Origin: a virus
Virus record (IMG/VR): IMGVR_UViG_3300046740_000164
Span: 1-28,792 of that record
Length of the DNA stretch: 28,792 bases
Strand: one strand, 5' to 3'
The notes beneath the pieces are model-generated. The model was not told the origin of the DNA. It ran no database searches and saw only the letters and a program-made list of their open reading frames with translations. The position numbers and the translations under genes are program-made. The number at the start of each line of letters is the position of its first letter. Position 1 is the stretch's first letter. Of the stretch, positions 10,218 through 27,483 are shown one piece after another.

Positions 10218-10269
10218 TGCGCACCTGTTCATCTAGCGCAGAGCGGCGAGATGGACACACACTGTGCCC

Positions 10270-10502: not shown

Positions 10503-12062
10503 TCAGGTCACCGTGTCTCCGCGCGAGCACTCGCGAAACTTCGAGGACGCTTTGTCCCAGCGAAACCTAACCTGGATGGTATGCGCGGCAGTGGCGGGCA
10601 CAGCGACGGCGCCGCTTAGGACGTAGATTGCGTTCGTACTCCAGGTGACCGCTCCGCCCGATGCATTGATGAAAACGAAGTCCCAGTAGAGATCAACGTC
10701 GGTCGTGCCAGTGCCCGGCAATATCGCGGGCGCCGCCACGGTCTGTGTCCCGGCCCCGCCACTGGTGGCCGACAGGATGATTTCTTTGCCCTTATAGAGA
10801 ACCGGCGTCAGCGTGTTTCCGATTGCTGCCGAGAACGCGACCGCATCGACGTTGTTGCCCCACTGGCGGAAGTCGGGAAGCGTCGAGAGCGCTGAGACAT
10901 CGAACGCAACGGAATAGCCCGCCGTTCCGATCGATGGACACCCGAACACGCGAAAGCGAACCCCGGTGCCACCGGATGTCCACACTATGGCCTTGCCGGT
11001 CCCCGTGAAGTACGTGGAAGAGACGGTCACGTCCCCGGTGTAGCCGGCGAATTCCATGCACACGCCGTTCGGATTGCCGTGAAGGATCGAATCCACGACG
11101 TTTACGACGGTCGTGTTGGAGAGTTTGAGAGCCCGCGCAGTCGCGTCATCCTGGCACGTCAGCGCGCAATGCTCGAACGTCATGCCACTACTGAGACCAG
11201 TCGAAATCGCTGCGCTGATCGCCGTCAGAAATAGGGCCCCAGCATTAGAGTCAAGCGCGACGCCGACGACGGCCAGATCGTTGCAATCGGTGAATGCAAT
11301 GCCCGCCCCCGCGCTAGACGATGAGCAGTTAAGCCGCAGGCCGCTAACCTCGAACGAACTGCAACTGGCGAAACTGAATATGCTGGCAGTGGCATGCGAG
11401 GTGATGATCCGAGTCACGCCGAAAGATTCGCCGCGTACGCTCACGTGCGCGCTGCTTATCGTGATCGCCTGACTGATTTTGTAGGTCCCGGCAGGGAGGA
11501 ACAGATTCGTCGATAGCGACTTGGCCTCATTCGCTGCGTTCTGTATGGCCGTCGTATCGTCGGCGACGCCGTCTCCGACCGCGCCGAAGTCCTTCACGCT
11601 GATCCCCTGCTCCGCGAACTTCGACTTGATCGTCCGCGACGTCGCCCCGCCGCTCTCCTTGTACTTCCAGTCCTGCCCGCCGAAGCTCGTGAACGCCTTC
11701 GTCAGAACGTCGTTGAGGTTCGAGTCCGTGAAGCCAGCATTGCTCACGCCCACATCCCCCGCCGACGCCGGGATGTACGTCGTATCGACCACGATGTTCG
11801 TGTTCACGTCCTGAACCAGCACGCGAACAGGCTGGGTGACGTAGATTCCGTTGGGGAAGTCGGCGAGGTTGATCAGGCCGCCTGAATTCAGCGTGACCGG
11901 CTGGGTGATGATGGTCGTCGCCGCTGCGTCCGAGTAGACGTTGACCGGGGTGTTCGTGCCGGGGCGGAAGAAGTAGACGGTCCCAGAGCTATTCGGCGTC
12001 CCGTCAGACAGACGGGAGCCGGCGACAGAGAGAACGTCAACGAGGGCGGCGAAGTTGGACAT
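10503..12062 (-). CDS. Tailspike protein with pectate-lyase-type beta-helix
   Basis: A 519-aa protein. Residues about 10-95 form a beta-rich N-terminal domain with the pattern GTVYFFRPGTNTPVNVYSDA, common at the start of phage tailspikes, and probably attach to the tail. A short linker (about 100-150) leads into ISVKDFGAVGDGVADDTTAI at 154-173, the classic opening of the Pectate_lyase_3 beta-helix family. Repeating short strands continue to about 430. The last 80 residues are a separate beta domain ending in a charged strand. Such trimeric spikes bind and often cleave capsule or LPS glycans. Catalytic residues cannot be assigned by eye. The start overlaps the previous stop (TGATG). Confidence 0.85.
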   Translation of the reverse strand: MSNFAALVDVLSVAGSRLSDGTPNSSGTVYFFRPGTNTPVNVYSDAAATTIITQPVTLNSGGLINLADFPNGIYVTQPVRVLVQDVNTNIVVDTTYIPASAGDVGVSNAGFTDSNLNDVLTKAFTSFGGQDWKYKESGGATSRTIKSKFAEQGISVKDFGAVGDGVADDTTAIQNAANEAKSLSTNLFLPAGTYKISQAITISSAHVSVRGESFGVTRIITSHATASIFSFASCSSFEVSGLRLNCSSSSAGAGIAFTDCNDLAVVGVALDSNAGALFLTAISAAISTGLSSGMTFEHCALTCQDDATARALKLSNTTVVNVVDSILHGNPNGVCMEFAGYTGDVTVSSTYFTGTGKAIVWTSGGTGVRFRVFGCPSIGTAGYSVAFDVSALSTLPDFRQWGNNVDAVAFSAAIGNTLTPVLYKGKEIILSATSGGAGTQTVAAPAILPGTGTTDVDLYWDFVFINASGGAVTWSTNAIYVLSGAVAVPATAAHTIQVRFRWDKASSKFRECSRGDTVT

Positions 12063-12304
12063 CAGCGGTCTCCAAACAGGCGGGCGAGGACACGCGGGTC
12101 AACCGGGGGCTCGGGGCCTGCCTGCTGCGGGTCGCGAAATCCGCCCATCGGGGCTTCGGTGCGGTCCATCGGGGTTTTGTAGAACGCGCCGTAGTCGTCG
12201 TAGAAGGCGGGCGACAGGGCCCGGCCCTTCGGCATCGGCTCGCCCGGTTGTCCGCCTCGCTTTGCCATCTCCATCGCGTACATCTGTGCCAATGGGCCGG
12301 TCAT
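12062..12304 (-). CDS. Small hypothetical protein between adaptor and tailspike
   Basis: An 80-aa protein starting at ATG 12304-12302, which overlaps the adaptor stop as TGATG and is preceded by an AAGAGGTGG ribosome binding site. The N-terminal helix (MTGPLAQMYAMEMAKRGG) is followed by a Pro/Gly-rich, aromatic middle (FYDDYGAFYKTP) and a short helical end (PRVLARLFGDR). There is no membrane span or enzymatic motif. Its own stop overlaps the tailspike start. Position between the head-tail adaptor and the tailspike suggests a minor tail component or spike-attachment factor, which is inference from context only. Confidence 0.55.
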   Translation of the reverse strand: MTGPLAQMYAMEMAKRGGQPGEPMPKGRALSPAFYDDYGAFYKTPMDRTEAPMGGFRDPQQAGPEPPVDPRVLARLFGDR

Positions 12305-13002
12305 CACCACCTCTTGGGGAATTTGATTCCAGGTTCGACGACAAACCTTATGGGGCCGCGCTCCGTGTCGTCGTTCACGGCGGACTCCTTCGCATCCTTC
12401 AAGTCGTCTTTGAGCTGCGCCTTCCGGGCCGATTGGCCGTAGTGGTCGCAGAGAGCAATCGCGAGCGAGATGACGACCGTGTTCAGGTAGCGCGTCGGCA
12501 GACCCGTCGTGTTGGCTGACGACACCATGTCCGGCTGCAAAATCACCGCTGGATAAGTCACCGTCGTGTATTGCGAGTCCGGCGTGGGATAGAGAAAGTA
12601 GGAGAGCGTCTCGCCTTTCTCGACGTAAATCTGCGACGGCACGCCTTGGCTGTCGGGGTTCGACAGCGCCATGTACTGGCCGCGTGACTTCTTCTCGAGC
12701 GGCAGATTGATGCCGGAGGCGTTCGAGACATACGGCGTTCGTTCGTCGATGTCGATGACGTTCGACGCAGCCTGATATTGCTTCTGGCCCGCCACGAGGT
12801 TGTCAGTCGTGCGCAGGATGCTCCGAAGTTGGATGCCCTGCGTCTGCAGGTCCGTGAGGACAATCTGCAGGAAGTCCCGGCCCATCGCGTACTGGTTCGA
12901 GTCCGGGTCTTGCCCAGCCGCGACGATACCGCACCGCTGGTGAGCGACGCGGATAATCCCAGACGTCGACAGGTCGAACGAGTAGCTGTTGCTGGTGCTC
13001 AT
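12304..13002 (-). CDS. Head-to-tail adaptor, P22 gp4-like tail accessory factor
   Basis: A 232-aa protein with the pattern I associate with the P22 gp4-type adaptor, the ring added beneath the portal after packaging. An N-terminal helical part around GRDFLQIVLTDLQTQGIQL (about 41-59) leads to LVAGQKQYQ (about 69-77). A stretch of strands follows (LSNPDSQGVPSQIYVEKG, LSYFLYPTPD), then a C-terminal helix pair LNTVVISLAIALCDHYG. P22 gp4 is shorter (166 aa) and has been reported to have muramidase activity; I see no such motif here. The stop and start junctions with both neighbours are overlapping. Synteny with the gp10-like hub supports the call. Confidence 0.7.
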   Translation of the reverse strand: MSTSNSYSFDLSTSGIIRVAHQRCGIVAAGQDPDSNQYAMGRDFLQIVLTDLQTQGIQLRSILRTTDNLVAGQKQYQAASNVIDIDERTPYVSNASGINLPLEKKSRGQYMALSNPDSQGVPSQIYVEKGETLSYFLYPTPDSQYTTVTYPAVILQPDMVSSANTTGLPTRYLNTVVISLAIALCDHYGQSARKAQLKDDLKDAKESAVNDDTERGPIRFVVEPGIKFPKRW

Positions 13003-15506
13003 GACCGCGCCTCTCTGAACGAGCGTCCGAACTGCGCCGCCCGAACGGCGTCGTTGACCATGATCGCCGGTGCGACCAGCCCCAGGTAACGCCCCGCCAG
13101 GTATTGGCTCTGCTGCGCCCTCTCGTCATCGTCAAGGACGTGGTCCCACACGAACACCTCGGAGATGCTTCCGAAGAAGTTCAGCCCCCCCGAGATTGCC
13201 CGGCCAATCGCGAAGCTCGTGGTGGCCGGTGCAGTTGGGCCCGGCATCACACTCGGCGTCAGCACGGTCAGAACGCCGTTGATCCGAACCTCGATGTTGT
13301 CGAAGCCCGACGACGACCACTCCACAAATAGCGTCGCGCCGTTGTAGGGCCCCGTAGACCCTCCCGGCGTATCCGGCCCTCGTAGAGCTCCAGGGAAGCC
13401 GATGTCCTTCCATCCCTTGGACCACAGGTAGAACGCGTTCGGGAACGAGCCGTCTTCGAGGTCGAAGATGGGCTGAAACGTCGGCGTAGAGCCGAACTCG
13501 GCGACGATTCCCCCAGTGGGCTTCACGTCGAACGCGACCACTTCATAGGCCGGCTTGATGACGGCCATGAAGGTTCTGGCCTGCGTCTCCCCGGGACCGT
13601 AGCCGAGGTGGTTCCCGTTGCGGTCGACGAGCCCGTTCGGGGCCTCACGGTAAAGACCCCTGTTCGTCCCAGCGAACACGGGGAACGTGACGGCGGGGAT
13701 TGTGCCGATGGTGTCGACGCCGGTGTTTGGTCCCGGATTCGCGGGGAGGTCGGTGACGTTTTGCCCGAAGCCGCTCTGATCGGCCCACAGCGTCGCCTTC
13801 CCGGCAACCGACGTAAGCCCGACGTCACCCTTCACCCAGAACACGAGCCCGACAGACGGAGGCGAGGACGTCGATTGCCCCGACCCGCTGGCCGGGAATG
13901 CATTGCCGCTCGAATCTGCCGTGAAGGCAGTCTGAAGCGTCAGGCCCGACTCGCCGCGCAGGATGATTCGATCGGACGTCAGCCCATCGTTGAAGTTGCC
14001 GTCGAAGTACCGCTGAACGATGTTGAGCGGATAGAGCCGCGAGTTCATGAAGCTGGCCCGATTCCGTGACGCCCAGATGCGGGAGAGCATCCCGAAAGAG
14101 CCCCAGTCGTAGAGGCTCGCGGCGTTGATCTTGGTGTCCGCAAACGTGTCCGGGTCGCGCACCTGGAGCAAGGTGGCCGGGGCAATCGTCGGGTCGTAGG
14201 TCCCCGTCGTGCCGTGGTAGAGCACGGACGTCGACGTGTTTGCGGGCGTCTCGAAATCGGCGTTCGAGGTGAACGACCGCAGCCAGTCAGAAATGGTCGT
14301 GACCTGGCTTGTGGCCCCCTCGTAGTTGTAGAGAGCCTCCAGGGCCATTGCGAAGTTCTGCGAGGTGATTTCCGTACCGACAGCCGAACCGCCATCGACG
14401 TACTCCCACAGCCCCGTCCCAACGACCGTGAATCCGGTCTTCAGTAGAGGGTAGGCGTTGAAGAATTCGCGCGGGGTCGTGGAAGAAAACCCGTTGACCA
14501 GCGTTCCAGTTGAGTCGGTGATACCGGTCTCCCAGCAGGCCCGCATGTCCGCGATGGACTGCGACAGAAGCTGAGCGGGGATGGAGTCGAAGCCGTCGAG
14601 GAGCGCCGAGGCGCCGATCTGCTGGTCACCGTCGGTCGTCTTGATCTCGTTCCAGAACTCCAGGGCAACGAGGCCGCCTGGGTAGAACAGATGGTTGGAG
14701 TAGAACCGTTCGCCCGGGTCAGCGCCCGAAACCGTCGACACCTCGGAGCAAACAGCCCCCGTGTAAAGCCGGCCCATACCCGCAGCGTTCGTTGACGTGT
14801 GCTGGGTGGCGTTCGAGCCGATGGCCTGGACGTTGCGCAGGTAGGAGGCGGCGGCGCGTGCACCAACGAGATAGACCTGGGCCCCCGTCACGCGGTAGGC
14901 GTAGAGCAGCGCCAGGCCAGCGGTCGCTGTGTCGTTCGTGACGTATTTCGTTGCCCCGGAGGCCAGGAGGCCGCCGTAGTAGAGGTAGTTGGCCCGGGTG
15001 GCCAGCGGCTGGAGGCCGAATCCCTGCTGTCTCGTCTGGAGGTAGTCGGCGATCGTCGCGAGCAGCTCCTTTGCCTTCGGGATGAGCAACGCCCGGCTAG
15101 GCTCGTTCGCTTGGATCAGATCGTAGAAATATCGAGCCGCCCACGACAGACCGGCGAACGCTTCCCCCAGCGACGTTGCTACCGCATGCCCGGACGAGAC
15201 GTATTCGTAGCGGCATAGAGCGGATACCTGCTGAGTGAGGAAGTTGAAGACCGCCGCGTCGTCAGTCTCGAGGAGGTTCGGGTAGTAGTGGCCCCAGGGC
15301 TTGGGATGCGGGACTGGTTTGATCGTGAACGGCCGCTGACGGGCATTGCCTCGGTCGAGTTGCGTGCGGACTCTCTCGCCGTGGTCGTAGGTGCAGACCC
15401 ACAGTTCGTCCTGAAGGTGCATCTCTTCGATCTGCCGAAGCAGGCCGCAGATGTCGCACGTCCGGCGATAGCTGTGGCGCTGGTAGCGGCCAGCCATCTC
15501 AGACAT
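12999..15506 (-). CDS. Multidomain virion protein: Cys-rich N-terminus, helical toroid-like domain, LamG-like C-terminus
   Basis: An 835-aa protein with three recognisable parts. The N-terminus has C17-D-I-C20, C38 and H42, a pattern able to bind zinc. Residues about 85-430 consist of helix pairs with aromatic and Gly turns (for example AFAGLSWAARYFYDLIQA and LLATIADYLQTRQQG), as in (alpha/alpha)-barrel glycan-processing enzymes. Residues about 555-815 resemble a LamG/concanavalin domain, with VGLVFWVKGD near the start and SEVFVWDHVLDDDERAQQSQ near the end. A GGAG site supports the ATG. It overlaps the adaptor gene by 4 bases. A tail-associated glycan-binding or degrading protein is likely, but neither an enzyme class nor catalytic residues can be assigned. 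Confidence 0.55.
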   Translation of the reverse strand: MSEMAGRYQRHSYRRTCDICGLLRQIEEMHLQDELWVCTYDHGERVRTQLDRGNARQRPFTIKPVPHPKPWGHYYPNLLETDDAAVFNFLTQQVSALCRYEYVSSGHAVATSLGEAFAGLSWAARYFYDLIQANEPSRALLIPKAKELLATIADYLQTRQQGFGLQPLATRANYLYYGGLLASGATKYVTNDTATAGLALLYAYRVTGAQVYLVGARAAASYLRNVQAIGSNATQHTSTNAAGMGRLYTGAVCSEVSTVSGADPGERFYSNHLFYPGGLVALEFWNEIKTTDGDQQIGASALLDGFDSIPAQLLSQSIADMRACWETGITDSTGTLVNGFSSTTPREFFNAYPLLKTGFTVVGTGLWEYVDGGSAVGTEITSQNFAMALEALYNYEGATSQVTTISDWLRSFTSNADFETPANTSTSVLYHGTTGTYDPTIAPATLLQVRDPDTFADTKINAASLYDWGSFGMLSRIWASRNRASFMNSRLYPLNIVQRYFDGNFNDGLTSDRIILRGESGLTLQTAFTADSSGNAFPASGSGQSTSSPPSVGLVFWVKGDVGLTSVAGKATLWADQSGFGQNVTDLPANPGPNTGVDTIGTIPAVTFPVFAGTNRGLYREAPNGLVDRNGNHLGYGPGETQARTFMAVIKPAYEVVAFDVKPTGGIVAEFGSTPTFQPIFDLEDGSFPNAFYLWSKGWKDIGFPGALRGPDTPGGSTGPYNGATLFVEWSSSGFDNIEVRINGVLTVLTPSVMPGPTAPATTSFAIGRAISGGLNFFGSISEVFVWDHVLDDDERAQQSQYLAGRYLGLVAPAIMVNDAVRAAQFGRSFREARS

Positions 15507-16353: not shown

Positions 16354-16548
16354 TTAGGCTCGCGCCCTGACCTTGGCGATGACGTCCGGTCGGCTGGCCT
16401 CGCAGGCTGCATGCCAGCGCGCATGGCCGGCAACACCTGAAAGCTCGCCCTCGTAGCTTCCGCACACGACACAGCCGGTCTTGGGCTCCGGCTCGACAAC
16501 GGGAGCCAGCTTCGAGATGGGCGTGATGTCTTCCTTGTTCTTCGCCAT
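16354..16548 (-). CDS. 64-aa C2H2 zinc-finger-like protein
   Basis: A short frame starting MAKNKEDITPI at ATG 16548-16546, overlapping the preceding stop (TAATG). The open frame continues upstream inside the neighbouring gene but is Arg/His-rich shadow there. The product has C26-V-V-C29, then twelve residues, then H42-x3-H46, the exact spacing C-x2-C-x12-H-x3-H of a classical C2H2 finger, with another Cys at 49. The N-terminus is Lys/Pro-rich. Phages carry small C2H2-like proteins of unknown role. Here it is embedded among virion genes, so either a structural zinc-binding minor protein or a nucleic-acid-binding regulator is possible. Confidence 0.65.
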   Translation of the reverse strand: MAKNKEDITPISKLAPVVEPEPKTGCVVCGSYEGELSGVAGHARWHAACEASRPDVIAKVRARA

Positions 16549-17513
16549 TACGCGCTCACCGGGGTCATCAGGGCGCCGTTCTCGGCCGCCAGGTTCGCGG
16601 TGTAGTCGCGGAAGTGCTGGGGACCATCGCCAGCTCCAGCGGGAACCCAGCCCGCCAGCGTGGCGTTGTCGAGGATGCCGTAGCCGTTGTCGGCGCAGAC
16701 GCCCAGGACGCCGTTCATCTGCGTCACCGCATGGATGCTCGACGCCTTCTTGTTCACGATGAGGTTTCGGCGGAAGCTGATGCCGATGGAGGCCGTCGTG
16801 ATGAAACGGACAGACCCGACCGTAGTCGAAGAGGTCGCGCCGTCGATCACGTTGTCCCAGACCTCGCAGTAGTCGGCGCCGACCAGATACATGAACGACG
16901 TGGTGAGCGTCGAGCCCGCCGTCACGTCGCAGAAGCAACTGTTGTTCTTGAACTCGAAGTAGTCCGCGGCAGCGGTCGTCGTCACGCCGATGGTGACACC
17001 CTGATCGGCGTCGATGCCGTAGTTGATGAAGCAGCCGACGATCGCGCAGCCGTTTGCCGACACCGTGATCGGAGCGGCAACGGTGAGAGCCGCAGTGGCC
17101 CCCAGCGGACCCGCGAAGTACAGGTTGCAGTTCTGCAGGCGGAAGTTCGCCGTGTCGAACAGAACCGTCGAGCCAGCCGTGGTCCAGGTCAGTTGCGGAC
17201 GATTGGTCCCGCGGCCCATGCCGATGATCGTGACGTCCGTGGCCGCGAGGGCCGACCACGAATCAGCCGCCGCGATGCTCTCCGTGTAGCCCGGGAGAAT
17301 GTAGATCACATCCCCTCGGCCCGACACGCAGGCGCCGAGCGCCGTATTCACGTTCGCAAAGCACCGGCTCGACACGCCGGGGGCGGCGTCGCCGATGCTC
17401 GACAGTTGAGCGGAGGTCCCGACGTAGAAGACGTAACCTCCCGTCACCGAGAGGAAAAGGTTCCCGATTTCCTCTACGCTGTTCTGAGTGACGGGGTTGT
17501 TTGGTCGCGACAT
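16548..17513 (-). CDS. Beta-helix virion protein, tandem paralogue B
   Basis: A 321-aa protein. After a short head containing FYVGTSAQL (about 29-37) it has YILPGYTESIAAADSW (about 70-85), VTIIGMGRGTNRPQL and a ladder of short strands with Asn, Asp and Gly turns, typical of right-handed beta-helices. It is closely similar along its whole length to the protein encoded just upstream at 17526-18485. Identical blocks include ALTVAAPITVS, TIGVTTTAAAD and GATSSTTVG, and both end LAAE-x-GAL-x-TPVS. A strong AGGAG site precedes the ATG. Position after the capsid gene suggests an abundant exterior virion protein. No enzymatic motif is visible. Confidence 0.65.
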   Translation of the reverse strand: MSRPNNPVTQNSVEEIGNLFLSVTGGYVFYVGTSAQLSSIGDAAPGVSSRCFANVNTALGACVSGRGDVIYILPGYTESIAAADSWSALAATDVTIIGMGRGTNRPQLTWTTAGSTVLFDTANFRLQNCNLYFAGPLGATAALTVAAPITVSANGCAIVGCFINYGIDADQGVTIGVTTTAAADYFEFKNNSCFCDVTAGSTLTTSFMYLVGADYCEVWDNVIDGATSSTTVGSVRFITTASIGISFRRNLIVNKKASSIHAVTQMNGVLGVCADNGYGILDNATLAGWVPAGAGDGPQHFRDYTANLAAENGALMTPVSA

Positions 17514-17525
17514 CCGCCGCTCCTA

Positions 17526-18485
17526 CTAGGTGCTCACGGGGGTGGTCAGCGCGCCTTCTTCGGCGGCCAGGTTCGCCGTGTAGCAGGCGAAGAACTGCGG
17601 GCCGTTGCCAGCGCCCGACGGAACCCAACCCGCGAGAGTCGAGTTGTCGAGAATGCCGAAGCCGCACTGACGAACCGTTCCGGTCAATCCAGCCATGCCC
17701 GTGACGGCATGAACCGAAGAGGCCTTGTAGTTCACGATCACGGAGTCGCGGAAGTCGATCGCCAACGACGCCGTGGTCAGGAAGCGAATCGGCCCAACCG
17801 TGGTCGAGCTGGTCGCGCCCTGGATGTTGTTGTTGTAGAAGGTCATGTTGTCGGCGCCCACGACCTGGAGGAACGTCGTGCACTCGGCCGCCGTCGCGCC
17901 GTAGCACTGGTTGCGGCTGAACTCGAAGTTGTCCGCCGCTGCCGTGGTGGTGACACCGATGGTGACGATCTGATCGGCATCCACGCCGAAGTGGATGTAG
18001 CAATCGGTGATGAAGCACCCAGCCCCGGAGACGGTGATGGGCGCAGCGACCGTGAGGGCAGTCGAGGACGCCGGGTCACCGGCCATGTAGAAAATGCAGT
18101 TCTGGATGCCGAAGTTGCTCTGATCCATCAGGATCGTCGCGCCGGCCGCCGAGTAGGTGAACGTCGGCCGCGCCATGCCGCGGCCGAGGCCCACGATGGT
18201 GACGTTCGTTTTCGACCCGAGGCTGGACCACTGGTCAGCAGACGAGATCGTCTCCGTGTACCCAGGCAGAACGTAGACGAAGTCGCCACGCCCCGAGACG
18301 CACTGGTTCAGCGCCGCGTTGACGGTCGTCGAGACACGGGAGGCAATGCATTCCCCGGTCTCGCCGAGCGCGGCAACCTGCGCCGCCGTGCCGACATAGA
18401 AAACCGCCCCGCCCTGCGGAGAGATGACAGCCCCGATGACTTCGTTGACACCGGGGAAATTCGCGAAGACGTTGCGATTCGCCAT
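17526..18485 (-). CDS. Beta-helix virion protein, tandem paralogue A
   Basis: A 319-aa protein immediately after the major capsid gene in transcription order. It shares the architecture of paralogue B: a short head with FYVGTAAQV, the segment YVLPGYTETISSADQW, VTIVGLGRGMARPTF, and then regular short strands consistent with a right-handed beta-helix. It ends LTTPVST. The near-equal length, the shared C-terminus and the adjacency show that A and B arose by tandem duplication. The head regions differ most, and the strand-forming core is best kept. By position it could be a head fibre, decoration protein or tail component, and the sequence alone does not decide. Confidence 0.65.
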   Translation of the reverse strand: MANRNVFANFPGVNEVIGAVISPQGGAVFYVGTAAQVAALGETGECIASRVSTTVNAALNQCVSGRGDFVYVLPGYTETISSADQWSSLGSKTNVTIVGLGRGMARPTFTYSAAGATILMDQSNFGIQNCIFYMAGDPASSTALTVAAPITVSGAGCFITDCYIHFGVDADQIVTIGVTTTAAADNFEFSRNQCYGATAAECTTFLQVVGADNMTFYNNNIQGATSSTTVGPIRFLTTASLAIDFRDSVIVNYKASSVHAVTGMAGLTGTVRQCGFGILDNSTLAGWVPSGAGNGPQFFACYTANLAAEEGALTTPVST

Positions 18486-18495
18486 TGTTCAGGCC

Positions 18496-19407
18496 TCAGA
18501 TGCTCGAGCCGTACACATCGCGCCAGTCGCTCCAACCAACGCCAAAGCGCTGGATGCCGACGAAGCTCTTGGTGTAGTTGTCCTCGGTGTTGTGCTCGCG
18601 CAGCAGCGGCTTCTTCCGCCAGATGAAGCGCAATCCGTTGTCCAGGTCCGACACGCCCCACCAGTTCGTGGTACTGGTGAAGTAGCGGTCCGAGGCGATC
18701 TTCACGCCCATGCCCTTCATGAAGTTGAGGGCGTTGTTCGCCGTGTCGTTCTGCTTCTCCGAGCGCAGGATGCGGTTCGCGCGCGGCTCCAGCGACTTCG
18801 GGACCGACAGCTGCTTGAGCTCGTAGCCGGCCTGGATGTAGCCGTTCGAGCCCGGGAGCTGGCTCATGTTGATCCACATCTGCTCGACCGCCGTCTCGGA
18901 GAGAGACATCGGGTTCGCAAAAGTGTTGGAGGCGGTGCCACCGCGAGGGAGCGGGTGGGATGCGCTGCAGAGAGCGACGGCGTCGCCTCCAACGAAGCTC
19001 GAGGAGAACGAGTTGATGAAGATGTTCGCCGTCTCGAACTCCTGCGTGAGACGGAGAGACCGATTCACCGACTTCGTTGCCGCGATGGCGTCTTCGTACT
19101 TGCAGTCGTCGAGGGCTTCCTCGCTGACCACGATACGAAGGCCGTACTTGATCATGTAGTAGCGCTTCGAGTAGCCCTGCGTCACGGCGTCGAGCGGGAT
19201 CATCTGAGCTTCCGCGACAGCCGGGGCCACGCCGGTGTGGGCGTACTCCTGGTCGTCGACGTAGGCGTCAGTGGTGTTCGACTGCTTGAAGCCGATCTGC
19301 ATCCAGTCGAGGTTGTTCATCGGCTGGTCACCCCAGGCTTTGTCCAGGGTGAGCTTGAGGGCCTTCGAGACTACTGTCAGCCCAACGAATGCGTTTGGTC
19401 CAGGCAT
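18496..19407 (-). CDS. Major capsid protein
   Basis: A 303-aa protein with features seen in HK97-fold major capsid proteins of podoviruses. It has an N-terminal helical part, a central segment RYYMIKYGLRIVVSEEALDD (about 82-101), and then the region ALCSASHPLPRGG (about 144-156), similar to the '(L/F)-(x)-S-x-x-H-P' landmark of Mu-like and related capsid proteins. It ends with a strand-rich tail. It sits directly after the scaffold and capsid-associated genes, the standard place. No N-terminal protease or delta domain is apparent, consistent with use of the separate scaffold. The stop of the preceding gene is 3 bases from its start. Family assignment below HK97-type was not possible by eye. 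Confidence 0.82.
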   Translation of the reverse strand: MPGPNAFVGLTVVSKALKLTLDKAWGDQPMNNLDWMQIGFKQSNTTDAYVDDQEYAHTGVAPAVAEAQMIPLDAVTQGYSKRYYMIKYGLRIVVSEEALDDCKYEDAIAATKSVNRSLRLTQEFETANIFINSFSSSFVGGDAVALCSASHPLPRGGTASNTFANPMSLSETAVEQMWINMSQLPGSNGYIQAGYELKQLSVPKSLEPRANRILRSEKQNDTANNALNFMKGMGVKIASDRYFTSTTNWWGVSDLDNGLRFIWRKKPLLREHNTEDNYTKSFVGIQRFGVGWSDWRDVYGSSI

Positions 19408-19410
19408 GGC

Positions 19411-20061
19411 TTACAGCCCCGTCGTGGTGTAGGAGGGCCAGATACCCTCGTTGACGACCACCAGGAACTTGAAGCGAGTGACGGTGGGGTCGTTATCCAG
19501 CGTCGAGAACCCGGCTTGCAGCGTGTAGTTTCTGATTCCGACGATGCGGAAGTTCAGCGTCGTCGTGGCGTGGGTCGAGATGTCCAGGGCGAAGCCCGAG
19601 ACGCCCGTGGTCGGGTCCGCCGTCCCGGTCGCGAGGTCGGCGTTCTCGCCGATCATTGCGATCTGAGTCGCCGCCGTCGTCGCCGTGGTGCCGTCGTCGG
19701 CGTCGACCTCCAGGATGACGTCCGCCGTGAGCGGAACGTACTGGACCAGCGAAGCGTTCGCCGAACCGACCGTGGTCGGGGAGAACACCGTGGTCGCCGG
19801 GAGGTAGTTCGACAGCGAGCGGCCGATGGTGATTCCGCCGGCCACATAGCTGATGCCGGTGATGACCCCCAACAGCTTGTCGTTGTCCGACGCAGCCGCG
19901 CGAGCGACCGTGCCGTCGGAGACCGGGATGATGATGTCCCCGATGCCGAGGGCCGTGCCGTAGCTGCTTGCCACTTCCTGGATGAAGTTGGTGGGCATCG
20001 CCCCCTCTCCACCAGTTACGGTTCCCCAAACTCGGAAACCTCCCATTTGAACGTTAGCCAT
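19411..20061 (-). CDS. Capsid-associated structural protein (decoration-type)
   Basis: A 216-aa beta-rich protein. The pattern is one I recognise from proteins encoded just before the capsid gene in many podoviruses. GTALGIGDIIIPVSDGTVARA (about 35-55) is followed by LLGVITGISYVAGG, then VILEVDADDG, then TGVSGFALD (about 152-160), and a C-terminal strand set ending RFKFLVVVNEG. Related proteins are usually annotated as structural or head decoration proteins, but their exact role is not known to me. An AGGAGATGACC ribosome binding site precedes the ATG, suggesting strong translation, fitting for an abundant virion component. Confidence 0.6.
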   Translation of the reverse strand: MANVQMGGFRVWGTVTGGEGAMPTNFIQEVASSYGTALGIGDIIIPVSDGTVARAAASDNDKLLGVITGISYVAGGITIGRSLSNYLPATTVFSPTTVGSANASLVQYVPLTADVILEVDADDGTTATTAATQIAMIGENADLATGTADPTTGVSGFALDISTHATTTLNFRIVGIRNYTLQAGFSTLDNDPTVTRFKFLVVVNEGIWPSYTTTGL

Positions 20062-20071
20062 TGGTCATCTC

Positions 20072-20512
20072 CTACTGAATCGAACGTGCGTACTCGTGTT
20101 CGGAAACGCTGGCGTACTGGCCGCCACCGATTTGCTGAGCGGCGCCACCCCGAAGGGCCGCCGTGCGCTGCCGGGCAATCGCAAGCGCCTGACCCTGGAT
20201 GCGGTCGTAGCGCTCCTGCTTGATCTTCATCATCGTCAGCCCTTTCACGTTGAAGTGGGCCTCGCCGGTTCCCTGGCGGATGTCGAAGAATGGCGTCGCC
20301 TGCTCGTTGCCGCGAACGCAGCGAACGTAGCCACGTCCCAGCATCTCGGGCATGTCGTCATCCGAGACGAGCGAGTAAACGAAACCGGGCTCTTTGTTGT
20401 CGATCCGATCGCAACTCAGGTTGCCGTCAACGGGGGCCGGGTCGGCGTCGTGCCTGACCTTCTTGGGCCTGCCTCGCTTCGCTTTGACGGGAACGGTCGC
20501 TTCGTCCGACAT
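20072..20512 (-). CDS. Capsid-cluster protein with AT-hook-like N-terminus
   Basis: A 146-aa protein. The N-terminal segment KAKRGRPKKVR (residues 10-20) contains the R-G-R-P core of an AT-hook, which binds the minor groove of AT-rich DNA. Residues about 42-95 form a small alpha/beta region with GRGYVRCVRGNE. The end is helical and Arg/Gln-rich. It is the first gene after the 157-base hairpin gap and starts at an ATG with an AGGAG site. Proteins of this size between scaffold and capsid genes are common in related phages, but their job is unclear. The AT-hook could bind DNA during packaging, or it may just be a basic tail. Function is not assigned. Confidence 0.6.
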   Translation of the reverse strand: MSDEATVPVKAKRGRPKKVRHDADPAPVDGNLSCDRIDNKEPGFVYSLVSDDDMPEMLGRGYVRCVRGNEQATPFFDIRQGTGEAHFNVKGLTMMKIKQERYDRIQGQALAIARQRTAALRGGAAQQIGGGQYASVSEHEYARSIQ

Positions 20513-20669: not shown

Positions 20670-21602
20670 TTATGCTCCCTGTCTTTTTGCTTTCGAGCCG
20701 ATGTCCTTCGCAAACTTCGCGAACGCCTGCGGGGCTTCGAGTTGGGGATACGCCGCGAGGGCCATGCGTTTGAGGGGCAACGAATTCTCCACCTCCTCCG
20801 CGCTCATCGACCCCGACGAAGCGCCGTCGTCATCCTGCCCGTCGCGAGCCGCGAAGCCGGCATAGCGCTGACGGCTTGCTTCGCTCGGGGCCGACCCTCC
20901 TCCGAGGCGGAGCATCTTCGCGGCGTACGTCAGCGCCTCCTCCATCGTCTGGCGGGTTGCCGGGCGACCGGAGCGCAGGAGGGCGGCGAAGCGCCCGTCG
21001 GCCAATGACCGGCCCTCGATGTTCGTCTCCACCCACGGGTACTTGGCCGAGATGTACTGCCGCTCGCTCAACATGTCCTGGTTTGGGATTTGCCCCTGGA
21101 TTTCACCGCGCCGACGTTCCCACTCTTTCTCGGCCCAGATTTCGCGGCGGATGTCCTCGGCCTCGTCGGTGAGTTCCTGGTGCTTGTTCCAATACTCTCG
21201 CGCGAGAGTCGGGTTGTTGTTCGCTTCGGCTGCGCGGGCGAGATAGAGCTGCGCTTGCTCGCGGAGTTGCTTGACCTTGCCCATCTTCTCCGTCGAGGCG
21301 TCCTGCTGGCGCGTCTGCTGCTGGCGCTCCTCGACCGTTCGGCGAAGTTCCGCCATCTGCTGGTCTTGCGCGGCGAGGCGTGAGCGCAACTCGTCGCGGT
21401 CGCGCTCGGCGGCCTGTCTCGCCATCGCCGCTTCGCGCATGGCGTGCTTCCGGCGTTCTCCACGGGGCGCTCGAGCCGGCGCGTCGTCGGTTGCGGCCTG
21501 TCGTTCGCCTGCGTCGGCCTCTGGCGCGTCGTCGACTTCGTCAGTGGACGTATCGCCCGTGTCTTCGGTCTGCCCACCGGATTCGATGTCTTCGTCGGCC
21601 AT
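20670..21602 (-). CDS. Capsid scaffolding protein
   Basis: A 310-aa protein that reads as a scaffold. It has an acidic, disordered N-terminus (residues 1-50, rich in Asp, Glu, Thr, Gly), then a long charged coiled coil from about 55 to 165 (including RQAAERDRDELRSRLAAQDQ). A less charged middle follows, then a short basic C-terminal helix ending KDIGSKAKRQGA. Podoviral scaffolds such as P22 gp8 bind the coat through a basic C-terminal helix, and the composition fits that. It lies between the co-chaperonin and the capsid genes. No protease motif is present. The AAGGA site supports the start. Confidence 0.78.
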   Translation of the reverse strand: MADEDIESGGQTEDTGDTSTDEVDDAPEADAGERQAATDDAPARAPRGERRKHAMREAAMARQAAERDRDELRSRLAAQDQQMAELRRTVEERQQQTRQQDASTEKMGKVKQLREQAQLYLARAAEANNNPTLAREYWNKHQELTDEAEDIRREIWAEKEWERRRGEIQGQIPNQDMLSERQYISAKYPWVETNIEGRSLADGRFAALLRSGRPATRQTMEEALTYAAKMLRLGGGSAPSEASRQRYAGFAARDGQDDDGASSGSMSAEEVENSLPLKRMALAAYPQLEAPQAFAKFAKDIGSKAKRQGA

Positions 21603-21604
21603 AG

Positions 21605-22030
21605 CTACTTGTCCTTTCGCTGATACATGGTTTTGCCTTCGTCATCCAAGGCGAGCTCGAAATCAGCCCGCCGTTTCACCGCCTCGACGCTTCCCAAGAC
21701 GTCTTCGGCCTTCAGTTCGAGAACCTTCGTCGGGGGTCTGCCGGCTTGCTTGTCGGCGACCTCGCGGTCCCTGCCGGCGTAGTGGGCGAGCATCACTTCG
21801 TCCCCGACTTGGATCAGGGCGTCGTTCAGCTTGTCGTAGGCCTCCAGGCCCATCGCAAGCAGGATGCCGCGAGAGAACACGGGCCTAGCAGTCTCGGGCA
21901 TGACGATTCCTCCGGCCGTCTTCTCCTCGGCCTGGATGCGGAAGATGAGGACGTTGTTCATTCCCGGGAGGTAGGGAATGGGCGAGATGTCGCGCTTCTC
22001 CCGGGCCTTGTCGCTGATGACGTTGCTCAT
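21605..22030 (-). CDS. GroES-like co-chaperonin (Cpn10)
   Basis: A 141-aa protein with a clear Cpn10 pattern. NVLIFRI (about 26-32) is the first strand. EEKTAGGIVMPET (35-47) matches the GroES mobile loop with its G-G-I-V-hydrophobic core, which docks on GroEL. VGDEVMLAHYAGRD (75-88) matches the VGD...YAG strand pair, and VLELKAEDVLG (103-113) matches the terminal '(V/L)-I-x-E-x-D-I-L-A' strand. It is longer than bacterial GroES (about 97 aa), with extra N- and C-terminal segments. The frame opens at a GTG (22042), but the ATG at 22030 has a GGTGGAG site at the right distance. Like T4 gp31, it probably adapts host GroEL to fold the phage capsid protein. Confidence 0.87.
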   Translation of the reverse strand: MSNVISDKAREKRDISPIPYLPGMNNVLIFRIQAEEKTAGGIVMPETARPVFSRGILLAMGLEAYDKLNDALIQVGDEVMLAHYAGRDREVADKQAGRPPTKVLELKAEDVLGSVEAVKRRADFELALDDEGKTMYQRKDK

Positions 22031-22042
22031 GGTTGTCTCCAC

Positions 22043-22267
22043 CTATTTGTCGTTTTCCATCACTCGGATTGCCACCTCGAACCCATCGACCCGACCGGCG
22101 AAGCGGCGCGCGCGGTTCACGGCCTCGTCATCCTCGGCGATCAGCGCCGTGACGACTTCGTCCTTGGCCTCTACGATTTGCCCTCGGATGGCGTCGAAGT
22201 AGGCAATCGTCGACGGATGGTCACGCCACTCTCTCCGCTCTTCGTCGGTCAGCTTGAACCAGCTCAT
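22043..22267 (-). CDS. Small charged hypothetical protein
   Basis: A 74-aa, highly charged, probably all-helical protein starting MSWFKLTDEERREWRDHP. The helical run from about residue 20 to 60 mixes Ala, Glu, Asp and Arg. No membrane span, zinc ligands or known motif is visible. Its ATG overlaps the preceding stop (ATGA), and its stop is 12 bases before the co-chaperonin ATG. It belongs to the portal-scaffold interval, where small genes of unknown function are frequent. It may be a host-interaction or assembly factor, but nothing in the sequence points to a specific role. Confidence 0.6.
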   Translation of the reverse strand: MSWFKLTDEERREWRDHPSTIAYFDAIRGQIVEAKDEVVTALIAEDDEAVNRARRFAGRVDGFEVAIRVMENDK

Positions 22268-22449
22268 TTAGCTTTCTCCATGGCTTCCTCGGATACGACG
22301 AACCGCTCGCCGCAAGAGCACGTAAGCAACAACTCCAGGGATGAATCGAAAAACCACACTCTCTTGGCCTCGTGGTCAGCGTGGTCGGGGTGGTTCTTGC
22401 GTACGAGGTTCCACGCTGGCCCCATTGCTCGCTCTTGATCCGCGTTCAT
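22264..22449 (-). CDS. Small hypothetical protein with C-x-C motif
   Basis: A 61-aa protein starting MNADQERAMGPAWNLVRKNH. It has three histidines in the first half (H20, H23, H26) and TCSCGERF (about 43-50) near the end, which together could bind a metal ion, though no standard finger spacing is seen. The strand-like stretch VWFFDSSLELLLTC precedes the Cys pair. Its ATG overlaps the portal stop (ATGA) and its stop overlaps the next start (ATGA). Function is unknown. Confidence 0.6.
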   Translation of the reverse strand: MNADQERAMGPAWNLVRKNHPDHADHEAKRVWFFDSSLELLLTCSCGERFVVSEEAMEKAK

Positions 22450-24737
22450 GACGTCGCCAGTCCCGAGTTAGCCGGCGTCGCGCCAGCGTTGGGGACCGTT
22501 GGGCCTGGGTTCTCTGGCCGGGGCGGTCCGTTGCCCTTCGCCTTCCCGTTCGGCGGCGGCGGGCCCTGCGGCGGCTGCCCTGGCGCTCCCGGTTGCTGCT
22601 GGCCGGGCATCATCATCCCCGGGGGAGGCTGCATCTGGAGGGCGGCCATCAGTTCGGGGTCGTCCATCGCCCGGAACATCTTCTTGGCGACGGCGGCCAT
22701 CAGGAACGGGTTTTGCGCCAGGTATGGGTTCGTATTCACGAGGTTGAACGCGGCTTGCGCTTCGGCCATGCGCTGAGGCTGGGAGGCCATCCGCTGGTCT
22801 GCTGTGATCGTGATGTCGACGTCTTCGAGGTAGTCCCTGCGAGCTACAACGACCTTCTCCACCGACGGAGCGAAGTCTCCGCCCGGTTGCGCAGGGGGAA
22901 TCCGCTTGTACGGGTCGACGACGGAGAAATACTCCTCGTCGCCGAGATAGACCGAGTTGAGACGGGCGAGCTTCTGTCCCTCGCAGGTTCTGGCCCGGCC
23001 ATAGTCCTTGTTCCAGATGGCAATCGCCTGGAGGGCCTGACCGATGCGAATCTGGGTCGTCGTTGCGGTTTCGTTCGACCCGCCGACCTCGCCCGAGAGG
23101 ATGTCTCCAGCGGAAGAGACGTCGTCGGCGTCTTCCTGCTGAGCCTTGATCATGTTCCCCATCGCGGGGTCGGGCGGGGCGAAGTCGAGCTTTTTGATCC
23201 CCTTGTCCAAGTCCTGGGGGTTCAGGTCGGTCTGTGTTCCCTCGCCCGGGCGGATGCGGAACTCCCCCCGGCCCAACTTCGCCTGGCGGGAGTAGATGAA
23301 CGTTGCCGTGCTATTCAGGAACGCCGCATCGACGACGTACGAGGCCAGGGTATCGGCCAGCTGGTTGTTTCCTTCGAGCAGGAAGCCGATTCCGTAGCCG
23401 TAGACACCCTCGGGGTTGGGGATGCAGACGTAGTGGGTGAAGAAGTGGATCGGAACCATCTTCGGAGGTGCAGGAGGCGGTGGCATCTCCGGTTGCATGG
23501 GAGGAGGTTGCGCCATCGGCATCATCGGCCCCGTCGAGTCCATCGCCCCCGGCATAGGCATCCCCGTTGAGTCCATCGGGCCCGCCATGGGCATCTGGGT
23601 TTGGTTCATCTCATACGCCTGCATGTCCATCTGCCACTGCTGCATGGCTGCGGCGTACTGAGCCTCGTTTGCGTCCTGCTCGAGGTTGTAGCGGGCTCGG
23701 TCTTGCGGGTCTTCGTCCTCGCGGAGGCGAACGGACACCACAATCTTCGTGTCTCGGTCGATGGTGACGATTACCGGCCTTTGGGGCTCTTTCTTGTCCT
23801 TCTTCGGCTCGCTTCCCTCGTCCATCAGGCCCGCGGGCTCGGCCATCTCCTCCAAGGGCGAGTCGACGGGTGCAGCCTTGGCCTTCGGCAGCGAAAGCCA
23901 GCGGTGTTGCTCGAGCAAGACCCTCGGAGAGTCGGAATCGGACTCTTCGTCCTTCTCGACCCCGCTCGCCTTGTCGGTTACCTCCTGGATCGAGCCGGAT
24001 TTCTGGGAGTCCTCCTGGTTTCCGCCGGCTTGCCCCTTGTCCATCTTGTCAAACAGCTTGTCGACGTTCTGGAAGTACCCGGTTGCCGCTTCCGCTTCGA
24101 GCTCGTGGCGCTGCATGCGGAGAATCCGCGTGATTCGCGGCATGTCGGCGAGGTTTGGGTCAGTGGACTTGCGCTTGTACGGAAGGACGATGTCCTCCGT
24201 CGCGCAAACCTCGTGGCAGGGGCGGTTTTTGCTCGCCGACCAGTACGTATACGAGAACGCCGACCCGTACAGGAGCCACTGCATGATCAGGGCCTTGTGA
24301 TTCGGGACGTACTCGGGGATTTGGTGAAGAATCTGCCAGTTCAGGTGCTTGGCGACCCTGATTGACCGGTCCAGGTCGAAAGCGTCGGTCGGTTTGACGC
24401 CGAAAAACTCGCCGTTCGACGGGAACTGCTGGTCGTAGATGCGCGCGTGAATGCGGATGCACGCTTTCGCGATGATGGAGAAGTGAACCTGCGCCCCGTC
24501 GTTCTCCGAGGGGGGCAACATGCCGATGAAGAGCTTGAGAATGCTCGCGCGCTTCTCCCGGTACTTCTCCGAGCTGCGCAAATCGCGCTCGTAGTCCTTG
24601 AAGACGCGAGAGGCAATCTTGCTTTGCTCGTCGTCGGGTATGGAGTCAAGCAGGTTGACCGATTCGGGGGCCTTCCCCATCAACAGCATGTCGACGGGGG
24701 GCGCTGCGGGCTCTAGTTCTTCGCTTTGTGTGTCCAT
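22446..24737 (-). CDS. Portal protein
   Basis: About 763 aa. It lies directly after the large terminase gene and is large like P22-type portals. It forms the dodecameric ring through which DNA is packaged and ejected. Landmarks are an N-terminal helical region, the segment ALIMQWLLYGSAFSYTYW (about 149-166), and YGYGIGFLLEGNNQLADTLA (about 446-465), typical of the portal core. A Met/Pro/Gln-rich insertion at about 362-426 contains two copies of MDSTG. The Pro/Gln/Gly-rich C-terminal tail (last 60 residues) is probably disordered. I chose ATG 24737, preceded by GGTG. The GTG at 24746 overlaps the terminase stop as GTGA and is an alternative start. Confidence 0.85.
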   Translation of the reverse strand: MDTQSEELEPAAPPVDMLLMGKAPESVNLLDSIPDDEQSKIASRVFKDYERDLRSSEKYREKRASILKLFIGMLPPSENDGAQVHFSIIAKACIRIHARIYDQQFPSNGEFFGVKPTDAFDLDRSIRVAKHLNWQILHQIPEYVPNHKALIMQWLLYGSAFSYTYWSASKNRPCHEVCATEDIVLPYKRKSTDPNLADMPRITRILRMQRHELEAEAATGYFQNVDKLFDKMDKGQAGGNQEDSQKSGSIQEVTDKASGVEKDEESDSDSPRVLLEQHRWLSLPKAKAAPVDSPLEEMAEPAGLMDEGSEPKKDKKEPQRPVIVTIDRDTKIVVSVRLREDEDPQDRARYNLEQDANEAQYAAAMQQWQMDMQAYEMNQTQMPMAGPMDSTGMPMPGAMDSTGPMMPMAQPPPMQPEMPPPPAPPKMVPIHFFTHYVCIPNPEGVYGYGIGFLLEGNNQLADTLASYVVDAAFLNSTATFIYSRQAKLGRGEFRIRPGEGTQTDLNPQDLDKGIKKLDFAPPDPAMGNMIKAQQEDADDVSSAGDILSGEVGGSNETATTTQIRIGQALQAIAIWNKDYGRARTCEGQKLARLNSVYLGDEEYFSVVDPYKRIPPAQPGGDFAPSVEKVVVARRDYLEDVDITITADQRMASQPQRMAEAQAAFNLVNTNPYLAQNPFLMAAVAKKMFRAMDDPELMAALQMQPPPGMMMPGQQQPGAPGQPPQGPPPPNGKAKGNGPPRPENPGPTVPNAGATPANSGLATS

Positions 24738-24742
24738 CGTGT

Positions 24743-26296
24743 TCACCAAACCATTCGGCGCTTCGTTCGGCGTGACGAGAGTTCGTCATCGCCCCAGAGA
24801 TGCGCCTCGCGGGCGCTTCGGATGTCGGTCTTTTCGTTCTCGCCCATGATTGGGCGGCTCATACAGGCGTAGCCGGCAGAGTCGGCGTCGTGGTCGTTGC
24901 CCTTCGTGTCCCACTTCTCTGGATCATCCGGATCGCTTTGGAGAACGGGGATTGTCACAATTGGCCCGACCTTGATCTTCTTACCTCCTGGCGTCTTCAC
25001 CTTGCTCGTGCAGATGTCGAACCAGCGGATTCCCGGGATGATGTAGGCTGGCTCGCCTCGTTCGTCTTTCACCGTCGGGTGCGGCTTGCGTGATTTCATG
25101 CGGATGCGCATCTGGTCCGCCATGCCCTTGCGATCCTTGGTGCACTTGAAGAAGTGGCATCCGTTCTCCATGAGCGTCTCGGCGATGGTCGGTCCGACGT
25201 GCCCCGCATCACCCCAGCAGGACGAATCGAGCGGGCCCGTCAACGTCGAGCAAGCGCGGTTCGAGTCCCACTCGCCGGCATCGCGCTCGATGATCTGAAT
25301 GTCCTCGGCCAGTTCGCGCGAGTTACGGCCGGTACACGTATAGCTGCGGTAGCACACCATGTTGCCATCCGGGTCCACCGCCCACCATTGGACCGAAGAC
25401 ATGCCGGGGTACGCATAGCCGTAGTCCGACGATCGGAACTTGTACCAGCCAGCGGGAATCTTGAACGGCCTGCAGATGTGCACCGCCGGGTCCCACAGGT
25501 CAGAGAAGAAGGCGTCGGCGGAAACGTTCCAATCGCCATCGCGAAGTGCTCGCCGAACGGCAGGCGGCTTCGTTGCGAGAGTGGCCGAGTATTCCGCTTG
25601 GTCAATACTCGGGTTGTCCTCGATGCGGGCGGGGATGAAGATTTGCTCCCGCTGCACTTCGACGACGCGCTCAACGCCGTTCTCGTTTACCTTGACGGGA
25701 ATGTTGACGATGACCGGCGTGTTCGGCGGTGCAATCTCGACGAACCGACGGCGAACCCACTCCAGGCCTCCCCCCACCGGGTTTGTGCCGGCGCGGATAT
25801 AGAGCATGTCCTTGAGAACTGGATCAGAGCTTCGGAGCCGAGTGTCAAGCTGGTCGAACTGTTCCTCGGTGAACGTTGTCAGTTCGTCGAACAGAATCTC
25901 CGTGAACTCGAAGCCGTAGTATTTGAGCCAGTCGGACTCGTCCTCCATCTGGCCGAACATGTACTTGTAGCCGCAGGAGAACGTCCACGTCTTGGTCTGC
26001 TCGTGCCAGCCCTTCTCTCCCATCATTGGGTCGATGAGCGGGAAGTAGCGGCGGGCGCGATCCATCACCTCCCGCAATTCAGGCATCGTGCGGCGGAAGA
26101 AGATTGCGCGGCCGGTCGATGACGGAATTTCTCCGCTGGCTACGCGCTCAGACTCAATGTGAATCTGACGAAACGGATCAAACAGGAGGCACTGGGACTT
26201 CCCTCCTCCCGCCGCTCCACCGTAGAGCGCATAGCGCCCGTCCCACTGCATGAACCGCGTTTGCGCCCCCGGGTGAGGCTTAAAGACGACGTTCAC
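24743..26296 (-). CDS. terL: Terminase large subunit
   Basis: A 517-aa ATPase-nuclease that pumps DNA into the prohead. Numbering from the chosen GTG start, the Walker A motif is GGAAGGGKS at 26-34. Walker B is ILFDE at 134-138, with catalytic Glu138. The coupling motif GTNP is at 170-173, and RDGDWNV near 252-258 marks the end of the ATPase domain. The nuclease domain starts with SSDYGYAYP (Asp291). CWGDAG (Asp362) and the DHDAD cluster at 467-471 supply further acidic residues. A TTG at 26311 gives five more codons, but the GTG at 26296 overlaps the fibre stop (GTGA) and has an AGAGG site 5 bases upstream, so I prefer it. Confidence 0.95.
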
Positions 26297-27483
26297 GCGG
26301 TCCTCTGCCAAAGGTTGATGACGATGAAGGGCGGGAGAATCGCCATCGACGTGCCCGAGAACACCGGGGCACTGTTCGTTCCCGCTGGGGTGAGCGTGTG
26401 CTGGTGAGTGCCGAGGGCGGAGCCCGTAAAAGTCGGGGCTGCGACTGTTCCCGTTGCCGTCGTGGTGTGCTGATGTGTTCCCAGTGCACTGCCAGTAAAG
26501 GCAGGGGCGCTGTTTGTACCCGCTGGGGTACCGGCCGTGATGGCCTGTGTCTTGAGTACGGCGATCGAAGTCGTGTTCGCGGTCGGAGCCGCTGAAATGG
26601 ATTCAGGGGCTCGAGACGTGCCGGTGCCGAAGATGGACGAGGCGATCATCTCGAGTTGCCCGGTCCCTCCCGCGGTCTTGCCGAAGGGTAGTTCGTGGGA
26701 GTGGGTCGCTAGGGCCGAGCCGGTGAACACTGGAGCGGCGACGGTGCCCGCTGGCGTTCCGGCGGACACCGCAGAGCTTGTATCCGTCCCGCCGGTGAAT
26801 GTAGGGACCGAGTTCGTTCCGGCGGGGGTTCCGGCTGACACCAGCGACGTGTTGATCGCCGATGTTCCCGTGAATGTCGGGGCGGTCACCGAGCCGGTTG
26901 GGGTTCCGGTCTTCGTGCCTCCAGTGCCGAGCAAGGTACCGAAGTCCGGATCGCCCTGGCTGAACGACACGGGCATCTTCCCAGCCCCAAACGCGACCCA
27001 CGTACCGAAGCCAAGAAGCGTCGAGGGATTCGTCGCAACGGCGGACATGAAGATTGAGCCGACCGGCCAGCAGGCGGAGACGCTACCGGCCTGCCCCGTG
27101 TTCCCCTGGGGACCTTGCGGCCCGATGTTTCCTTGTGGTCCCTGTGGGCCCGCTGAGCCGGCGGTTCCTTGCGCCCCTTGAGGGCCGGTTAGCCCAATGT
27201 CACCCTTCGGCCCCTGGGGACCTTGCGATCCAGTTGGTCCAGCAGGACCAGTCGGACCCTGCGCTCCTGCGGCACCGGGCGGCCCCTGGGTACCGCTTTC
27301 ACCCTTGGTCCCAGGAGGTGGGGGCTGCCAGCCGTAGGCGGTAGAGGCGAGAATCCAGTCGACGAGTCCGGGACCAGACTTCGTCCATACGAGTCGGGTT
27401 TCGGTGTCGATGATTCGATCGCCCACCAGCCCATCGCACCCCATGCGGGACGGGTTGCCGCGGAACTGACGAATCGCCTCCAC
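26293..27483 (-). CDS. Collagen-like receptor-binding tail fibre with HxH motifs
   Basis: A 396-aa protein. After an N-terminal domain (1-57) come 25 uninterrupted Gly-X-Y triplets (58-132), a collagen-like trimeric stalk. [20 protein letters not shown] (141-160) is the opening of a receptor-binding domain found in many phage fibres, and the end [14 protein letters not shown] matches the usual '(L)PPY.V...W.RTA'. Between them are six repeats of the form AGTPAG-x4-P-x-FTG. H261-S-H263, H337-Q-H339 and H360-Q-H362 are HxH motifs, like the metal-binding ones at the tip of T4 gp37. The start is a GTG that overlaps the previous stop. Its position directly upstream of the terminase is unusual. Confidence 0.82.
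26344..26916 (-). repeat. Six-copy protein repeat in fibre C-terminal region
   Basis: Six imperfect repeats encode the motif (A)GTPAG-T-x3-P-x-FTG-S-A, several followed by L-x-T-H-x-H. Five copies read [60 protein letters not shown] and [12 protein letters not shown], and a sixth, shorter copy ends PVFSG. Copies two to four share most residues, which suggests recent duplication or recombination. Such repeats can vary in number between related phages. Confidence 0.7.
27088..27312 (-). repeat. Collagen-like Gly-X-Y repeat region
   Basis: These 225 bases encode 25 consecutive Gly-X-Y triplets, with frequent GPQ and GPT triplets. Runs of GGN codons in a fixed period of nine bases make the stretch internally repetitive. 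In phage fibres such segments form trimeric collagen-like rods; prolines here would not be hydroxylated in a bacterial host. Confidence 0.85.

Follow-up and report, generated by a model that had tools for sequence, protein, structure and literature searches.

The stretch 21605-22030 of a viral DNA fragment encodes a Cpn10/GroES protein, and we consider it likely that this protein is the co-chaperonin of a conserved phage head module, which serves as a lid on host GroEL for the folding of head proteins and chiefly of the major capsid protein. The window, meaning the whole stretch of DNA analysed here, corresponds to one entire virus entry of IMG/VR, 28,792 bases long, and as it is linear it is probably a fragment. 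The genes and signals of its head region are as follows.

24743..26311, minus strand: terminase large subunit (Pfam Terminase_3/Terminase_6N; PHROG 979, E 3.9e-39)
22446..24749, minus strand: portal protein, 767 aa, 84.7 kDa (weak match to PHROG 332; homologues annotated as portal or head-to-tail connecting protein)
22264..22449, minus strand: 61-aa ORF (weak zinc-ribbon match to PF05207, E 0.003, below the cut-off)
22043..22267, minus strand: 74-aa ORF upstream of cpn10 (conserved in relatives L002, L011 and L012)
22037..22043, minus strand: ribosome-binding site GGTGGAG of cpn10, overlapping the stop codon of the 74-aa ORF (by inspection of the sequence)
21605..22030, minus strand: cpn10/groES-like co-chaperonin gene, 141 aa, ATG at 22030 and stop at 21605 (Pfam, PHROG, PDB, AlphaFold)
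20670..21602, minus strand: scaffold-like protein, 310 aa (named from where it lies, its size and its charged composition; relatives have a homologous gene at the same place)
20072..20512, minus strand: conserved head-module protein, 146 aa (same place in relatives)
19411..20061, minus strand: protein of 216 aa, the size of a decoration protein, encoded immediately upstream of the capsid protein (profile matches, same place in 25 relatives)
18496..19407, minus strand: major capsid protein, 303 aa, 33.7 kDa, of the Mu gpT / Phage_capsid_4 type (family matches; annotated capsid proteins in relatives)

The search of Pfam with the 141-aa protein gave 45.1 bits for PF00166 Cpn10 (E 1e-11), above the curated cut-off of 21.1. 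The protein also matched PHROG 3188, co-chaperonin GroES (E 3.8e-7), and solved GroES/Cpn10 chains in the PDB by sequence search, and NCBIfam GroES models were hit with E-values down to 8.7e-11, yet all well under their strict per-clade cut-offs. The motifs pointed out in the first-pass annotation, namely the mobile loop EEKTAGGIVMPET, VGD..YAG and EDVLG, were all found in this ORF, and the GroES-like identity claimed there was confirmed by these matches together with the predicted fold described below. In the subclade to which the window belongs, cpn10 was under purifying selection, as dN/dS was 0.05 and 0.06 in two close pairs.

The same annotation had placed the gene between portal and scaffold and supposed that it is co-expressed with the capsid genes. 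Indeed, cpn10 was located downstream of the portal gene, with two small ORFs in between, and upstream of the scaffold-like gene, which begins 2 nt past the cpn10 stop codon, so that the gene is packed into the head operon. The 310-aa scaffold-like protein had no match to a Pfam or PHROG family; its name was given from size, composition and position, as was that of the decoration protein, neither coming from a family match. For the capsid family, 17 of 19 members matched PF10124 (Mu gpT) and 16 of 19 matched PF25209 (Phage_capsid_4).

Other genes of the fragment were also inspected. Just downstream of the capsid gene, two adjacent 320-aa proteins are encoded at 16548-17513 and 17526-18485 (minus strand), which are tandem duplicates with 58% identity and no Pfam or PHROG match; their homologues directly follow the capsid gene in relatives. 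Upstream of the terminase gene, at 26293-27483 (minus strand), lies the gene for a protein that resembles tail fibres; it is collagen-like (PF01391) and has a T4 gp10 C-terminal-like domain (PF21939). The genes for an SU10-type adaptor protein (12304-13002, minus strand), a head-closure Hc3 protein (8787-10232, minus strand; PHROG 578) and a pectate-lyase-like tail spike (10503-12062) are consistent with a short-tailed phage. A Peptidase M15-type endolysin (19-459, minus strand; PF08291, PHROG 894) lies at the edge of the fragment.

The relatives of the capsid protein were then searched for Cpn10. When the window Cpn10 alone was used as the query against IMG/VR, no match was obtained, and a five-sequence Cpn10 alignment was required as the query to detect the relatives there. 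A capsid relative was encoded in 545 of 600 candidate IMG/VR stretches. Within the best 80 capsid stretches, Cpn10 was present upstream of the capsid gene, at a distance of 2.2-3.0 kb, in all 46 that had more than 3.2 kb of upstream sequence, and it stood between portal and capsid in all 38 contigs of this set with a detectable portal. The second viral set, collected with the window's own subclade as the query, had Cpn10 in 43/43 contigs whose sequence upstream of the capsid gene exceeded 3.4 kb, so that all 89 IMG/VR contigs with enough upstream sequence carried it. The bacterial-genome contigs with enough upstream sequence gave the same result (24/24), and apparent prophages with both capsid and Cpn10 were detected in Gluconacetobacter, Phenylobacterium, Bradyrhizobium and Zavarzinia, one Phenylobacterium copy being frameshifted.

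The capsid protein also matched 21 named phage records, and Pfam Cpn10 was above the cut-off in every one of them. Cpn10 was within the portal-to-capsid interval in 18 of the 21, based on annotation of the interval in 13 and on position in the other five, where record lengths or match positions were equal to annotated ones. Three distant genomes had Cpn10 outside the usual slot: in vir526, which has been assigned to methanogenic archaea as a virus, it sits upstream of the terminase gene, and in MW202601 and MW202604 a long distance separates it from the head genes. The retention of Cpn10 after it left the slot suggested a functional need, not linkage alone. Coordinates of relocated Cpn10 are 9327-9683 in L247 (BK063670.1) and 13798-14013 in MW202601.1. 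The Pfam search, which does find T4 gp31, detected no Cpn10 in P22, T7, N4, SU10, Mu or D3112. As D3112 possesses a distant capsid relative (26 bits) without Cpn10, the pairing does not span all gpT-type capsids. Two matches to Acinetobacter 'phages' were set aside, H1 being a bacterial groES-groEL operon on a phage-labelled contig. The record L027 (CAKLQH020000021.1), labelled Acinetobacter phage MD-2021a, has ordinary bacterial genes including groS-groL over the part that was read and is probably a mislabelled bacterial contig.

Cpn10 was thus present in every capsid relative that could be checked, which is the co-occurrence that the first-pass annotation had proposed to look for. Its view of the gene as a rarity did not hold, as the gene was universal in all that was tested of its capsid lineage and GroES has been published as one of 13 core genes in 82 HTVC023P-type pelagiphage genomes (PMC9599517). 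The cpn10 gene is ordinary for its capsid lineage, not exceptional.

The inheritance of the gene was compared with that of its neighbours. The pairwise distances over 85 non-redundant loci were correlated between Cpn10 and capsid (r 0.74), Cpn10 and portal (r 0.80), and capsid and portal (r 0.86), each with p 0.0005 by permutation. A local replacement of cpn10 was considered for L002, whose identity to the window is 91% for the capsid protein and 55% for Cpn10, but with 48% for the scaffold and 49% for the 146-aa protein these two were equally diverged, so no special replacement event is needed. In a tree of 121 columns including four host GroES, the window's subclade formed one well supported group. 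This subclade apparently grouped with host GroES, which is no demonstration of a separate capture, as rooting on host GroES left the phage sequences as one group. The tree is thinly sampled, with four host GroES only, and more than one capture of cpn10 may have taken place.

The elements of the protein that are relevant to its function are the following.

21872..21937, minus strand: mobile loop, residues 32-53 (alignment with GroES and relatives)
21899..21907, minus strand: predicted GroEL-binding hydrophobic tripeptide I42-V43-M44 (GG-IVM at the loop tip; conservation in relatives)
21821..21847, minus strand: predicted helix replacing the roof beta-hairpin of GroES, residues 62-70 (AlphaFold, block pLDDT ~95; loop shortened in the subclade)
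21737..21757, minus strand: insertion, residues 92-98, largely confined to the window's subclade (column occupancy 0.03-0.23 for 92-97 and 0.51 for 98)
21608..21682, minus strand: C-terminal extension, residues 117-141 (predicted helix 117-123 and strands 124-128 and 134-138; AlphaFold)

The AlphaFold model of the window Cpn10, built with 46 related sequences, had a mean pLDDT of 86.1 and a pTM of 0.76, while the five-sequence input gave a pLDDT of only 60. Foldseek matches to this model in the PDB were Cpn10 down to rank 29, with T4 gp31 among them. VIA-align Z scores against Cpn10 chains ranged from 9.9 to 6.9, and the first non-Cpn10 structures (GroES-like domains, alcohol dehydrogenases) were at 5.4. 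The comparison with GroES and T4 gp31 that had been suggested earlier accordingly returned a Cpn10 barrel with a mobile loop. The C-terminal extension follows the last barrel strand and is missing in GroES and in the majority of the other phage Cpn10s aligned; the extra N-terminal segment had no confident predicted structure. It is possible that the changes in the roof and the C terminus, of which the helical roof and the C-terminal helix/hairpin are predictions for a single chain and not for the ring, could alter client handling. An enlarged folding cage as in T4 gp31, which the first-pass annotation had inferred from the extra segments, was not supported, because the mobile loop is not longer than that of GroES and the capsid protein is only 33.7 kDa.

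The loop of the window Cpn10 has 22 residues between R31 and R54, and that of E. coli GroES likewise has 22 (R14 to R37). Among 46 relatives (35 effective), G40 and G41 were approximately 90% identical and a hydrophobic residue was found always at position 42, in 89% at 43 and in 86% at 44, the GG-I-hydrophobic-hydrophobic residues being among the best-conserved parts of Cpn10. The mobile loop of free GroES is disordered and becomes ordered only through its contact with GroEL. As it is GroEL that constrains the loop in GroES, the conserved mobile loop speaks for GroEL binding. The GG motif was lost, with the hydrophobic stretch mostly kept, in L028, L041, L052, L106 and L044. The GG-less loops belong to 3531-3872 of L028, 5599-5934 of L041, 7544-7933 of L052 and 7093-7539 of L106, and these four may dock on GroEL in a different manner.

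The absence of a GroEL gene from the window, mentioned in the first-pass annotation, was reproduced with PF00118, which matched nothing in this 28.8-kb linear fragment, in L005 or among 15 named phage records, of which all but the circular assembly vir526 are titled complete genomes. Own copies of groES and groEL were found in four bacteria that harbour related prophages. Since GroEL was not found on the phage side and these four bacteria have both genes, host GroEL is the expected partner.

The function can accordingly be pictured as a series of steps, each of them proposed. The lineage, whose capsid protein is Mu gpT-like, consists for the most part of short-tailed phages, and Cpn10 is part of its conserved head module, where it would be produced together with the scaffold and the capsid protein. 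Cpn10 would assemble into a seven-membered ring, which could dock on host GroEL via the tripeptide IVM of the mobile loop and serve as the lid over the folding of new phage head proteins, with the capsid protein as the presumed chief client. A lid for host GroEL is supported by homology, the predicted fold, the intact loop, purifying selection, co-inheritance, co-occurrence and the absence of phage GroEL. Precedents are T4 gp31, with which GroEL folds gp23 (PMC6318259), and Mu, whose head and tail assembly is reportedly blocked in groEL and groES mutants, according to the title of Grimaud and Toussaint (1998) as listed in the references of PMC6950654. Several observations are against the view of a lid for the capsid protein: with 34 kDa, the capsid protein is small enough for host GroES, degenerate mobile loops occur in L028, L041, L052, L106 and L044, and no Cpn10 gene accompanies the gpT-type capsids of Mu and of D3112, a distant relative. 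Linkage alone could also reflect inheritance of the module, although the three relocated genes argue otherwise.

The partnership with host GroEL could also be retained with another head or tail protein as the main client, such as the 85-kDa portal, the scaffold or the tail spike, which we regard as unlikely but worth keeping in mind. The position of cpn10 between portal and scaffold would agree with this, and the Cpn10 distances follow the portal slightly better than the capsid (r 0.80 vs 0.74). However, the portal of 84.7 kDa is too large for the GroEL-GroES chamber, which is generally understood to be too small for a protein of that size, and Cpn10 persists in vir526 and MW202601, where the portal profile scored only 43 and 107 bits and the capsid 144 and 154 bits. 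It is improbable that Cpn10 redirects host GroEL generally, without a specific phage client; the mobile loop is intact and GroEL binding would bring competition with host GroES, but the gene is in the head operon and co-inherited with the head genes, and temperate relatives also carry it. Least probable of all is a GroEL-independent reuse of the Cpn10 fold in head assembly, for example as a ring aiding portal and scaffold in procapsid nucleation, which the location of cpn10 between these two genes, the predicted altered roof and extended C terminus, and the degenerate mobile loops of some relatives would suit, since the residues for GroEL contact rank with the best conserved ones and three genomes carry cpn10 away from portal and scaffold.

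Returning to the capsid protein as the client of a host-GroEL lid, a wider proposal can be made tentatively, with a chance that we put slightly short of even. The whole lineage of gpT-like capsids, in very different hosts, would depend on a private co-chaperonin because the capsid protein, or an intermediate of its folding, is handled poorly by host GroES, so that the gene is kept even off the head operon, and in the window's subclade the lid would have been rebuilt for that client with the helical roof and the C-terminal element. The textbook phage co-chaperonin, T4 gp31, is explained by the size of gp23. An ordinary-size capsid protein of 34 kDa accompanied by a private GroES in every checkable relative indicates that size is not the general reason for phage co-chaperonins. 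The pairing was seen in prophages as well as in phages from marine, freshwater and other environments, and it offers many capsid/co-chaperonin pairs for testing the dependence, some of them in cultured phages such as Caulobacter RW and Alcaligenes QDWS535.

A general pairing of capsid and Cpn10 was stated in no paper found in the open-licence literature. Besides the core gene of the HTVC023P-type pelagiphages, GroES has been labelled in Roseobacter phages CRP-901/902 (PMC10149686) and noted in myo-, podo- and siphoviruses (PMC4294664). Compared over their head genes, the HTVC023P-type pelagiphages, CRP-901/902, Pag-Yong1, Caulobacter phage RW and vB_Af_QDWS535 have the capsid, portal and Cpn10 families in common with the window, as well as the order terminase-portal-cpn10-scaffold-X-decoration-capsid, with extra genes in some. 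In contrast, the identity between their Cpn10s and that of the window was only approximately 17-28%, and the window's subclade differs from them by the shortened roof loop with its predicted helix, the 92-98 insertion, the C-terminal extension and the lack of an NDD motif towards the barrel end.

T4 gp31, which folds gp23 together with GroEL (PMC6318259), shares with the window protein the Cpn10 fold (Z 8.8 for 2cgt_O and 7.9 for 1g31_A) and the absence of the roof hairpin, along with the expected host GroEL partner and the expected capsid client. The identity is 12-13%, and the window gene is located in the head operon. While gp31 gains room for its client, gp23 of ~56 kDa, through longer loops (22 vs 16 residues by that paper's own count) and the lack of a roof (PMC6318259), the window protein has a loop of GroES length and an expected capsid client of 34 kDa. 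Bacterial GroES from E. coli, Thermus and H. thermoluteolus resembles the window Cpn10 in the barrel and in the equal-length loop with GGI-hydrophobic-hydrophobic, with 31% identity to the E. coli protein in the multiple alignment. The window Cpn10 differs from them in having no adjoining groEL, a predicted helix in place of the roof hairpin, and extra N- and C-terminal segments. What is new compared with these systems is the divergent environmental subclade and the extension to the whole capsid lineage of a tight pairing previously described for no more than a part of that lineage.
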